This document shows positions 17,919 to 60,705 of a DNA stretch of 64,000 nucleotides, in pieces. The number at the start of each line of letters is the position of its first letter. Position 1 is the first letter of the stretch. Source of the stretch: an uncultured Arthrobacter sp. (lineage in GTDB: Bacteria; Actinomycetota; Actinomycetes; Actinomycetales; Micrococcaceae); NCBI RefSeq assembly GCF_947495145.1, contig NZ_CANLXP010000012.1, positions 1-64,000 of the forward strand, in the 5' to 3' direction. A program made the translations under genes and the position numbers. The notes under the pieces were generated by a model that saw only the letters and a list, made by a program, of their open reading frames with translations, ran no database searches and had not been told where the DNA came from.

Positions 17919-18599
17919 CTAGGGCTCGTACTTGTAACCCAGCCCGCGCACGGTCACGAGGTGCCGCGGCACTGATGGGTCCGGTTCGATTTTGCCCCGA
18001 AGCCGCTTGACGTGAACGTCGAGAGTCTTGGTGTCCCCCACGTAGTCGGAGCCCCAGACACGGTCGATGAGCTGTCCGCGGGTGAGCACGCGGCCGGAAT
18101 TGCGCAGCAGCATCTCGAGCAGCTCGAATTCCTTCAGCGGCAGCGGCACCTGCTCGCCGTTTACGCTTACGACGTGGCGCTCCACATCCATCCGTACCGG
18201 TCCCGCTGCGACGGTACTGGAAATCAGCTCTTCCGGTTCGCCCTGCCTGCGCAGGACGGCCCGGACCCGAGCGACCAGTTCACGGGATGAATAGGGCTTG
18301 GTCACGTAGTCATCGGCTCCCAGTTCAAGTCCGACCACCTTGTCGATCTCCGAGTCCTTCGCCGTGAGCATGATGACGGGCACACTTGACCGCTGCCGCA
18401 GCTGACGGCACACTTCCGTTCCCGAGAGGCCGGGCAACTGTAGATCGAGGAGCACCAGGTCCGCCCCTGCGCGGTCGAACTCCGTCAGCGCATCAAGGCC
18501 GTTGTCAACAACGACGGCGTCAAATCCCTCCTTGCCCAACAGGTAGGACAGGGGGTCGCTGAAGGACTCTTCGTCCTCAACGATCAGGATTCGGCTCAC
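17919..18599 (-). CDS. regX3: response regulator RegX3 (phosphate starvation)
   Basis: 226 residues, OmpR/PhoB class. The receiver domain begins SRILIVEDEESFSDPL; the phospho-acceptor Asp is in ADLVLLDLQLPGLSG and the conserved Lys in DYVTKPYSSRELVAR. The C-terminal winged helix contains PLKEFELLEMLL and RLRGKIEPDPSVPRHLVTVRG. A longer in-frame ATG would add 59 residues translating senX3. The GTG at 18599 overlaps the senX3 stop (GTGA) and has AAGGAG upstream. Partnered with SenX3 and flanked by phoU, it is the actinobacterial phosphate-limitation system. Confidence 0.93.
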   Translation of the reverse strand: MSRILIVEDEESFSDPLSYLLGKEGFDAVVVDNGLDALTEFDRAGADLVLLDLQLPGLSGTEVCRQLRQRSSVPVIMLTAKDSEIDKVVGLELGADDYVTKPYSSRELVARVRAVLRRQGEPEELISSTVAAGPVRMDVERHVVSVNGEQVPLPLKEFELLEMLLRNSGRVLTRGQLIDRVWGSDYVGDTKTLDVHVKRLRGKIEPDPSVPRHLVTVRGLGYKYEP

Positions 18600-58778: not shown

Positions 58779-59621
58779 CTAGATGGAGTACTCCGGGGCA
58801 GCCCACACGACAACCTCGGGGTGCTCGTAAAACCGGTAGCCCTGTCCGCGGACTGTGCGCACGGTGTTGGCCAGGCGTCCGAGCTTCGAGCGCAGGCGGC
58901 GGATGTGGACGTCGATTGTGCGCTCGTTGGGCACCTCGTCCGCGTTACGCCAGAGGCCGCTGAGGAGCTCCTCGCGACCGACGGTCCGTGAGGCATTCTC
59001 GACCAGGTAGTTAAGGAGTTCGAATTCCTTGAATGTCAGGTTGAGGATGTCCCCGTCAAGGTGTACCTCGCGCCGTGAGAGATCGATCAGCACTCCGGTG
59101 GGGCGGGGCGCCGGCGGAGGAGTGGACTGCTGCTCGCTACGCGGCCGCCGGTTCACCGTCGGATCTCCAAGTGCCTGCCGGACAACGTCTATGTCGGTAC
59201 CGACGGCGTCGGCGGGAGCAAGCGCGACGGCAGCATGACTCTGCGCGCCGGGCACCAGGGTACGAACATAGGCACGGACATCCTGTGCGAGCTTGCTCAG
59301 GGTGGTCTCGTTCTCGGCGGCCGTGTCCTCATCCAGCGCAACGTAGAGCACGAACCCGCGTGCGGTGGTGTCGCCCGTGACCGCCTGGGGCCCCGGAATC
59401 CCGTTCGGGGTGACCACCGGAACCGGTGCGGTGATGGGCTGGGCCGAATCAGCAGGCGACGGCACAGACTTCAGCTGTCCGTAAGCCGGTGCGTAGGACG
59501 GAGCGGCCGGTTGGCTGTAAGCCGGAATGCCGGGGCGCTGCCCATAGGTCTGCCGCTGAATGCTTGCGCGGCTCTGTGCGTTGCGAAGGGAAATGTGGAC
59601 GTATCCGGAAGAAACGGTCAT
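58779..59621 (-). CDS. orphan winged-helix transcriptional regulator (OmpR-type DNA-binding domain)
   Basis: 280 residues. The first ~65 are low-complexity (Tyr/Pro/Ala/Gln-rich), then a globular segment about 70-145 (GFVLYVALDEDTAAENETTL), and a C-terminal OmpR/PhoB winged helix about 175-270 (LNLTFKEFELLNYLVENASRTVGREELLSGLW, ERTIDVHIRRLRSKLG, VRTVRGQGYRF). There is no receiver-domain phospho-Asp and no neighbouring kinase, so it is an atypical orphan regulator. The DNA-binding part resembles GlnR-type regulators, but the N-terminal half does not. A large non-coding region with repeated GTAAC/GTTAC motifs lies upstream. Confidence 0.82.
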   Translation of the reverse strand: MTVSSGYVHISLRNAQSRASIQRQTYGQRPGIPAYSQPAAPSYAPAYGQLKSVPSPADSAQPITAPVPVVTPNGIPGPQAVTGDTTARGFVLYVALDEDTAAENETTLSKLAQDVRAYVRTLVPGAQSHAAVALAPADAVGTDIDVVRQALGDPTVNRRPRSEQQSTPPPAPRPTGVLIDLSRREVHLDGDILNLTFKEFELLNYLVENASRTVGREELLSGLWRNADEVPNERTIDVHIRRLRSKLGRLANTVRTVRGQGYRFYEHPEVVVWAAPEYSI

Positions 59622-60069
59622 GTCTAAACAACCTCATGGTGAATCGCCGTCATCACGGCTCGAATGCAGGGGTGTGCCCGGTCGAGATGGAGCTTCTGTG
59701 GAGCCCGCCGTTGGGCTAGGGAATGCGTAAGAGGGTGGGGTAAACCGTTACGCGCACATTCGACAGCAGCGAGTTCCCTGCGCGGACATGATGCCCGGGG
59801 AATAAGCTGCGGCTGCAGATGCTGCTGAGTTGGTGTTCACGATTCGAATTATTGCACGTAACAATCCGTTACGCGCAAGTAACAATGGTAGGGCGTCCGC
59901 ATGCTGGACGCTCGGGATGGGAGACAAAGCGTTCTCGAAAACGCGCCGACTCAGCAAATGAAAAGACGAATTGCAAGGCATTGCACTGTGCCAATGCGGA
60001 ATGTCCGGAGATTCAGGCATTTGAGGCAACCACCTCTCACGCGCCCTTCCGAATAGTGGACGCCTTCGG
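59622..60069. other. 448-bp AT-richer non-coding region with GTAAC/GTTAC motif cluster
   Basis: No credible gene. It lies upstream of the orphan winged-helix gene and downstream of upp. CCGTTACGCGCA occurs twice (59745-59756 and 59866-59877). GTAAC (59858), GTTAC (59868) and GTAAC (59879) are spaced 10-11 bp; GTAAACCGTTAC spans 59740-59751. Confidence 0.6.
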
Positions 60070-60705
60070 TTAACCGACGACTCCGTAGAGGCGGTCTCCG
60101 GCGTCACCCAGCCCCGGCACGATGTAAGCGTTCTCGTTCAGCTTCTCGTCGATCGACGCGAGAACAATTGTCACGTTGGTTCCCTCCAGCTCCTGCCGGA
60201 GTGCTTCCAGTCCCTCGGGTGCCGCGAGAAGGCAGATGCACGTGACGTCCGCTGCGCCGCGCCGGAAAAGGAACTTGATTGCCTCGCGCAGGGTGCCGCC
60301 CGTTGCGAGCATCGGGTCGAGGACAAACACCTGCCGGCCGGTGAGGTCATCGGGCAGCCGCTCGGCGTAGGTAATAGCCTCGAGGGTCTCTTCGTTGCGG
60401 GCCATCCCAAGGAAGCCGACTTCCGCGGTGGGCACGAGGCGGGTCATCCCCTCAAGCATGCCCAGCCCAGCGCGGAGGATGGGGACAACCAACGGCGTGG
60501 GCTTCACCAGTCCGGTTCCGACGGCGGTGGTCACCGGAGTCTCGATCTGCACCGGCTCAACGCGCACATCCCGGGTTGCCTCATAGGCCAGCAATGTCAC
60601 CAGCTCCTCCGTGAGCAGCCGGAAGACCGGGGACGGAGTGTTCTTGTCCCTCAGGACAGTCAATTTGTGGGACACCAGGGGATGGTCGACAACCAGAACG
60701 CGCAT
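60070..60705 (-). CDS. upp: uracil phosphoribosyltransferase
   Basis: 211 residues. N-terminal [19 protein letters not shown] and [22 protein letters not shown] loop [18 protein letters not shown], and C-terminal [12 protein letters not shown] are diagnostic. Salvages uracil to UMP. Divergent from tadA with 22 bp between start codons; the minus-strand GATACT (60714-60719) is a candidate -10. Confidence 0.96.

Follow-up and report, generated by a model that had tools for sequence, protein, structure and literature searches.

On balance, we read the intergenic stretch of 448 bp that separates upp (60070-60705, minus strand) from the gene of a transcription regulator (58779-59621, minus strand) as a composite 5' control region, in which a cysteine leader peptide would act together with an operator of the OmpR type and an NdgR-type box to govern a regulator carrying a GlnR-like winged helix. 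Every regulatory feature of the region is carried by the minus strand. The parts of this reading appear on comparison of relatives: a conserved operator, an open reading frame (ORF) with its frame, Cys codons and stop, RNA helices and the positions of the box. From them we infer a start site, translation, Cys sensing, the direction of control, its read-out and the binding proteins. The arrangement suggests that production of the regulator may be tuned to cysteine or sulfur supply. Positions given here are those of the window, the whole stretch of 64,000 nucleotides that was analysed. In the direction of transcription, the features are:

59895..59909, minus strand: inverted repeat GTCCAGCATGCGGAC (within GCGTCCAGCATGCGGACGC), an NdgR-type box by the published motif and by comparison with relatives, at about -69 to -55 from the putative start
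59879..59883, minus strand: outer half-site 1 of the operator, GTTAC of GTTACTTGC, conserved among relatives
59868..59872, minus strand: middle GTAAC, not conserved
59866..59877, plus strand: distal copy of a 12-mer, spanning the non-conserved operator centre
59858..59862, minus strand: outer half-site 2, GTTAC, which relatives replace by GTGAC or ATTAC; its distance from half-site 1 is 21 bp
59848..59853, minus strand: putative extended -10, TGC-AATAAT, 7 nt before the GTG
59748..59840, minus strand: leaderless-looking leader ORF of 30 codons with a GTG start, MNTNSAASAAAAYSPGIMSAQGTRCCRMCA, and the stop TAA
59763..59768, minus strand: tandem Cys codons TGC TGT, presumed sensor codons in view of the Cys excess before Arg-Met
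59756..59762, minus strand: 5' arm CGAATGT of a long-range helix (comparative pairing), in the leader ORF right after the Cys codons
59748..59753, minus strand: 5' arm GCGTAA of a helix over the leader stop codon, with a compensatory change and 88.4% paired
59745..59756, plus strand: proximal copy of the 12-mer, covering the last two codons and the stop of the leader ORF plus 3 nt
59725..59730, minus strand: 3' arm TTACGC of the same helix (comparative pairing), the GTAA..TTAC inverted repeat of the preliminary description
59661..59667, minus strand: 3' arm GCATTCG of the long-range helix (comparative pairing)
59646..59770, minus strand: RNA domain (model R2), from comparative pairing and model searches
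59632..59635, minus strand: Shine-Dalgarno GAGG of the regulator gene, nearly invariant among relatives
58779..59621, minus strand: the regulated gene, encoding a regulator of 280 amino acids, from sequence and domain searches and a structure model

The downstream gene had been credited with a GlnR-like winged helix behind an unrelated, low-complexity N-terminus. The first part is confirmed by sequence and by fold: residues 177-265 form an OmpR/GlnR-type winged helix followed by a conserved tail, the protein has a Trans_reg_C match, and its winged helix is closest to GlnR both by sequence (PDB 8hml, 8hig) and by fold (8hml, 8hih), the latter in a model of residues 84-280 with a mean pLDDT of 77.1. 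This second AlphaFold model is usable for the winged helix alone and not for residues 84-160; the first, with 5 sequences, was poor (mean pLDDT 40.5). Low complexity extends, by eye, to about residue 83, the first ~14 residues being conserved, and the description does not fit residues 84-160, a conserved domain with a weak DUF6415 match under the DUF6415 cut-off. No match to the N-terminal domain GlnR_1st was found in the regulator, which places it outside the GlnR protein family. A homologue at E<=1e-30 is present in 50 of the 77 genomes searched, the own genome counted, and upp was recognised upstream of it in 34 of these 50 loci; its absence at a locus is uninformative because the flanks are short. 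One genome (G014) holds a second, more diverged copy (locus L070, G014:C101), and distant homologues occur in other families (loci L071-L073). A record titled Vibrio cholerae strain 35D (L098, WNZI01000007.1, match 2501-2758) contains an Arthrobacter-like regulator, with 80% identity in the queried domain, and its leader; it is probably a mislabelled or contaminated assembly.

The upstream regions were compared in several sets. A first alignment of 41 regions, with 9 of 50 loci left out, displayed a promoter element, a short ORF and an RNA domain, each conserved, as well as the beginning of the gene. From a further set, 10 of 50 loci were left out, alignments A1 and A2 using 32 and 35 of 40, respectively, and alignment A7 used 27 of 32 leaders. 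Of 480 loci in a scan of named genomes, 80 were retained, the majority from Arthrobacter, Pseudarthrobacter, Glutamicibacter and Paeniglutamicibacter, and most of these 80 have the same layout. The proposal of a regulatory region before an uncharacterised regulator is therefore borne out by its conservation among relatives. Conservation, which the preliminary description had set as its own test, extends to the outer half-sites and the layout and leaves out the 12-mer repeat and the middle GTAAC.

The promoter of the own genome reads GTTACttgcgcGTAACggattGTTACgtgcAATAATtcgaatcGTG on the coding strand. What is conserved in the operator is GTTACTTG[C/T] plus GTNAC, spaced 20-21 bp (22 bp in one). 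The motif [A/G]TTACTTG[C/T] stands upstream of the regulator gene in 118 of 130 loci, and four of the 12 loci without it are truncated or masked (L042, L119, L123, L168). Across 32 aligned sequences, 21 columns of a 48-nt element are invariant. The outer units of 47 distinct operators recur with a period of 20 bp (23), 21 bp (23) or 22 bp (1), and only 3 of these operators have GTNAC between them; since the search pattern itself demanded the outer units, this count is informative for the period and the middle unit alone. By this comparison, the conserved operator is a two-turn direct repeat located at about -43 to -18 from the putative start, where a -35 would sit, and the earlier assignment of the distal cluster to the direct-repeat format of OmpR-family operators holds. 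The putative extended -10 is a feature of this genus: its AATAAT is conserved in the 32 sequences aligned and absent from Pseudarthrobacter-type promoters. A sigma-70 scan found no promoter (0.4 expected), and an intrinsic terminator scan returned one weak match (59929-59944, minus strand; 0.7 expected), upstream of the putative start.

The element had been thought to mark an undescribed regulon. A sequence-only model of the 48-nt element, with at most 150 candidates scored per genome, matched the regulator promoter in 17 of 25 chosen genomes (13 strongly, 4 at E 0.009-0.64); 7 genomes were without a match, and one match fell away from the regulator promoter (G045, E 3.2, chance level). In the own genome, the model matches solely the own regulator promoter among the candidates scored. 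The core TTACNTGCNNGTN8GTNAC, allowing at most one mismatch, gave one exact and one further match in a genome scan, against four for the reversed control. A multi-site regulon of the full element or its core was rejected; these scans, the one with the model being limited to 150 candidates per genome, produced no further regulon site of the full element.

There are exactly two copies of the 12-mer CCGTTACGCGCA, one at 59745-59756 and the other at 59866-59877, spaced by 121 bp precisely as described before. Judged by sequence comparison, the two copies are different things, the distal one belonging to the promoter element and the proximal one to the end of the leader ORF. On the minus strand, the proximal copy reads TGC GCG TAA CGG, that is, the last two leader codons, the stop and 3 nt; it is the end of the leader ORF and not a second operator. 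The distal copy is found in 1 of 122 assessable loci, that of the own genome, and the proximal copy in 10; the exact 12-mer was accordingly rejected as a conserved unit. Only 0.6% of shuffles of the 448-bp region contain an exact 12-mer repeat, and 6 sites in the window have at most one mismatch to this 12-mer, 0.47 being expected. The window contains 20 overlapping exact 12-mer pairs at most 200 bp apart, distributed over 5 separate places, and pairs of this kind are therefore not rare there (shuffled windows: mean 2.4, maximum 9). GTAAC, GTTAC and GTAAC start at 59858, 59868 and 59879, in steps of 10 and 11 bp; no other GTNAC trio of such spacing exists in the window, against an expectation of 0.03 per dinucleotide-shuffled window of 64 kb, and none of 2000 shuffles of the 448-bp region gave one. 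Three units on one helix face are seen in the own genome and are not supported as the conserved feature, the middle one being GTNAC in only 3 of 47 operators. The inverted repeat reported at the proximal copy exists as well, with arms GCGTAA/TTACGC at 59725-59730 and 59748-59753, and turns out to be an RNA helix with compensatory changes.

GlnR, MtrA and the regulator could each recognise GTNAC. The likeliest binder of the operator would be the regulator itself, at chances we judge about evenly balanced, with MtrA or GlnR as the alternatives. The 48-nt element is seemingly specific to the regulator gene, a pattern that autoregulation would produce but that does not prove it; GlnR and MtrA are less favoured, since the period is 20-21 bp and the middle unit is missing. 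We regard as very doubtful that the region is simply a cluster of GlnR boxes, bound at GTNAC in both 12-mer copies by the GlnR of the genome, or by the regulator acting alike, and nothing else. A genuine GlnR with GlnR_1st and Trans_reg_C domains is indeed encoded by another gene (L002, G000:C9), next to a gene that we take to be mshD-like, and GTAAC-n6-GTAAC lies upstream of a second glnA-type gene. The own GTTAC-n6-GTAAC also fits the published box formats, GTnAC-n6-GTnAC and variants, in the excerpted text of PMC10704036, so the GlnR-box comparison drawn earlier stands for the own genome. It fails beyond it: GTNAC-n6-GNNAC units 11 bp apart require the middle unit and are not a property of the 47 operators, the glnA and amtB sites in three genomes of the same family have another format, reading GTWAC-n6-GMAAC (by eye), and the proximal copy is a leader stop. 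Genome-wide, GTNAC-N6-GTNAC has 38 matches and its reversed control 51, and a genome-wide GlnR-type regulon detected through this pattern was rejected for want of enrichment. It is also unlikely, if less so, that the operator is a site of MtrA or of another OmpR-type response regulator with many targets, the regulator gene being merely one of them. Streptomyces MtrA has the same half-site in its consensus GTAACCNNNNNGTAACC (PMC12323332, excerpted text) and a related winged helix is encoded at eight other places in the genome, but the 20-21 bp period is unlike an 11-bp repeat, the 48-nt element matches the own promoter alone among the at most 150 candidates scored, and the core scan remained below its control.

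Other sequences of this kind were encountered in the same genome. Several GTTAC-N6-GTAAC palindromes with a CGCGAG/CGAG centre (G000 C2:117862, C2:196752, C3:144413, C11:97224) are perhaps sites of another repressor. Within the window, 17925-18200 encodes the C-terminal domain of an OmpR-type response regulator adjoining a histidine kinase, a pair that is presumably RegX3/SenX3-like.

The NdgR-type box lies 11 bp upstream of the operator. The own copy agrees with the Streptomyces coelicolor NdgR motif at 14 of 15 positions, and binding is predicted; in S. coelicolor, NdgR, a regulator of the IclR family, governs genes for the biosynthesis of branched-chain amino acids and cysteine (PMC4340878 for both). 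A matrix made from seven leuC-upstream boxes, found in 7 of the 8 genomes looked at, matches best at exactly the same offset, -29, in 47 of 99 distinct promoters, the runner-up offset being shared by 4, although only 23 of the 99 beat their own shuffles at p<=0.05. This leuC-type box is near-perfect in several lineages (e.g. L057, L065, L068, L099, L132); the own box is diverged and is not detected by the matrix. In the own genome, the perfect palindrome occurs exactly once, beside an IclR-family gene at leuC, and a hybrid form, GTCTCACTATGTGGAC, lies between ilvD and ilvB. A scan for NdgR-like boxes with one mismatch gave 47 matches against 23 for its control, which denotes much background, and the ilvB site alone was followed as a target. 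The two marks of an NdgR regulon thus appear to be present, namely a 15-bp palindromic promoter box, seen in the sequence, and an orthologue with boxes at known targets, the orthology of the IclR-family gene being judged by position only. Elsewhere, GTCCACTATGTGGAC at G000:C2:211873-211887 (L175) lies beside divergent transporter-like genes, one of them resembling NarK by eye, and may be a further target site for the NdgR-like regulator.

The leader ORF was found in 113 of the 122 assessable loci (8 of 130 could not be assessed), corresponding to 76 distinct sequences because two locus collections overlap and contain the same genomes twice. The search behind these 76 demanded a GTG start and one Cys near Arg-Met; it did not demand a Cys excess. 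The ORFs stop at TAA (43), TGA (28) or TAG (5) and end in RCCRM[H/C]A or, more broadly, in variants of R-C-C-R-M-[H/C/Q/Y]-A. Of the 228 positions that make up the three codons preceding Arg-Met, 150 are Cys, compared with 5 of 1633 farther upstream; the ORFs have one to three Cys codons, two or three of them in 56 of the 76, and in 28 of the 40 ORFs of thirty codons Cys stands at codon 26, which belongs to none of the modelled helices. In 41 aligned leaders that had not been filtered, GTG is present in 41 and the frame is kept in 40 despite indels of 3, 6 or 12 nt, with the non-coding remainder adopting all three lengths modulo 3 (28, 9, 4). The +2 frame is also open in 39 of the 41, so openness alone says little. 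Codons 2-27 are not under purifying selection (synonymous share 0.187 against 0.273 expected); such absence of selection is typical of leader peptides and by itself no evidence for translation. By comparison of frame and stop, the transcript leader has a conserved, putatively translated short ORF, and its Cys codons are clustered near the end, two of the features expected of a cysteine-responsive attenuator.

The ORF was not recognised at nine loci. The frame is broken in L056, at the same place as in L229, and in L155 (by eye); L064, L067, L068 and L069 belong to other genera; L108, L126 and L158 are Glutamicibacter-like variants, of which L126 retains Cys-Arg-Arg-Met and the other two have lost the Cys-Arg-Met end (by eye). 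Leaders of the Glutamicibacter type (L108, L109, L111, L112, L116, L117, L121, L122, L124, L126, L141, L158) mostly run past Arg-Met (e.g. CRMLGVxG...), and their downstream RNA differs. An ORF before the gene ends in MCCRMCR in L071 and in CVRCR in L073, so the Cys leader may predate the RNA domain.

The end of the leader ORF overlaps a conserved RNA domain. Model R2 comprises the helices CGAAUGC/GCAUUCG, GCGUAA/UUACGC, GCCC/GGGC and GCCG/CGGC as well as a short CCC/GGG hairpin. Pairing was counted in 46 of 68 non-redundant leaders (alignment A6), a few with trimmed ends: 96.3% of cells are paired, and both sides are changed in 6 pairs and 28 cells, compared with 13.4 cells in shuffles, none of 500 shuffles reaching 28. 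The covariation score of 0.122 compares with 0.083 for shuffles and with values no higher than 0.037 for slid versions. Within the GCGTAA helix, a compensatory change from G-C to C-G at column pair 105/136 is seen in 19 of 46 leaders, and the two inner pairs are unpaired in 12 of 46 each. The long-range helix CGAATGC/GCATTCG is invariant save for G-U and one mismatch and, because it is near-invariant, has no covariation support; it is compatible with the sequence comparison and unproven. Besides pairing, its arm codes for Arg-Met and for part of the codon that follows, and another helix (GCTG) partly fixes Cys codon 25. Searches with the RNA model, 14 candidates being scored per genome, gave 12 strong matches, in 12 of the 248 genomes of the order. 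All 12 genomes belong to a single family, for which 19 genomes were listed, and every strong match precedes the regulator gene; five weak matches, with E from 5e-4 to 0.009, had neither the regulator nor the ORF end, and one of these five came from a genome that also gave a strong match. No Rfam covariance model matches the leader. All that Rfam listed was an upstream match on the plus strand, weak and at chance level (E 5.1), and, elsewhere in the loci of two relatives, a tRNA and a c-di-AMP riboswitch. An unusually stable single-sequence fold of the own leader was rejected (z -0.99). Pseudarthrobacter-type leaders (L062, L128, L144, L164) have a second GCATTC directly before the ATG, absent from the own genome, that could pair with the CGAATGC of the leader ORF and mask the start codon.

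In the mechanism that we propose, transcription would start on the GTG at 59840 or no more than one or two bases away from it, and the promoter would have an extended -10 and no recognisable -35. The tandem GTTAC operator (-43 to -18) would take the place of the -35, as in OmpR/PhoB-type activated promoters, and the NdgR-type box would connect the gene with the regulon for branched-chain and sulfur amino acids. The transcript would begin with the 30-codon leader ORF, whose one to three Cys codons stand right before the 5' arm of the long-range helix. A ribosome stalled at these codons would cover that arm, so that ribosome progress, and hence charged Cys-tRNA, would set the folding of the RNA domain and with it the synthesis of the regulator, a case of ribosome-mediated attenuation. 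The read-out could be Rho-dependent termination or translation. The stretch after the leader stop is C-rich and G-poor (mean C 40%, G 20% in 32 leaders, five of them overshooting the 3' end), which makes it a candidate for Rho. A simple release of a sequestered Shine-Dalgarno by the stalled ribosome was rejected: when a ribosome was stalled in simulation on the Cys codons, mean accessibility was 0.26 in the free and 0.25 in the stalled state, rising in 6 and falling in 8 of 33 leaders, with no consistent effect. No sulfur gene emerged as a target, and the link to sulfur is putative.

The ORF could also be no cysteine sensor at all, and instead an arrest peptide that senses something else, or a by-product of a conserved RNA structure that resembles a riboswitch or binds a protein, with its Cys codons fixed by pairing. 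The invariant CGAATGC/GCATTCG and the GCTG pairing do overlap the Cys-Arg-Met codons, the rest of the ORF has no amino-acid selection, and the stalled ribosome of the simulation left the Shine-Dalgarno unaffected. Against it stand indels that preserve the frame, the three different stop codons, the frequent Cys of codon 26, which no modelled helix includes, and the two or three Cys codons of most distinct ORFs, and we hold this account to be rather unlikely. Mere chance, by which degenerate motifs without function would have accumulated in an AT-richer intergenic region, is scarcely credible: it would suit the non-conserved exact 12-mer repeat and the frequency of such pairs in the window, and it is contradicted by the conservation of operator, ORF, RNA domain and box across the family. 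The composite control region with a putative cysteine-sensing leader is the reading retained here, with moderate confidence.

Neither the leader ORF, the RNA domain nor the NdgR-like box figured in the preliminary description. A search of the open-licence literature found no description of the leader ORF or the RNA domain, and there was no Rfam match; a family-wide leader and RNA domain before a transcription regulator, joined to an OmpR-type operator and an NdgR-type box, is apparently undescribed. A motif curiosity is thereby replaced by a concrete, testable control region across a large family of soil bacteria. If the cysteine link is true, it would provide the first lead on the signal sensed by this conserved regulator and a further case of attenuation acting on a transcription factor and not on a biosynthetic operon. 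More speculatively, and with considerable reserve, the GlnR-like orphan regulator, which lacks a receiver domain, might be a hub of the sulfur/cysteine network of Micrococcaceae, receiving three inputs (its own tandem operator, NdgR, and the cysteine-sensing leader ORF with the RNA domain), the ribosome on the leader gating the regulator and not the biosynthetic genes.

Several known systems resemble parts of this region. In Class II OmpR/PhoB-type activated promoters, a direct-repeat operator stands in place of the -35 box; the operator described here is alike in this respect, and activation would follow by analogy. The GlnR system, in the excerpted text of PMC10704036, shares the winged helix (8hml, 8hig, 8hih) and the GTNAC half-sites, whereas here the GlnR-type N-domain is missing, the period is 20-21 bp and the middle unit is not conserved. 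Streptomyces MtrA sites likewise contain a GTAAC half-site as a direct repeat, but with an 11-bp repeat (PMC12323332), as opposed to an element that is, as far as searched, confined to a single gene. The NdgR box of S. coelicolor is a 15-bp imperfect palindrome, as here, and similar boxes stand at leuC and ilvB in the own genome; the differences from PMC4340878 are that the present box precedes an orphan regulator and that its own copy is diverged. Leaderless Cys-rich ORFs are reported as cysteine-responsive attenuators in mycobacteria (Canestrari 2020, as cited in PMC13236596, PMC9094748). To judge from these citing passages, the two systems have in common a short ORF at the putative 5' end of the transcript, its Cys codons and a regulated gene downstream. 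They differ in that the mycobacterial ORFs are polycysteine whereas one to three Cys codons are present here, in that the gene controlled here is a transcription regulator and not a known sulfur operon, and in that the simulated stall does not open the Shine-Dalgarno.
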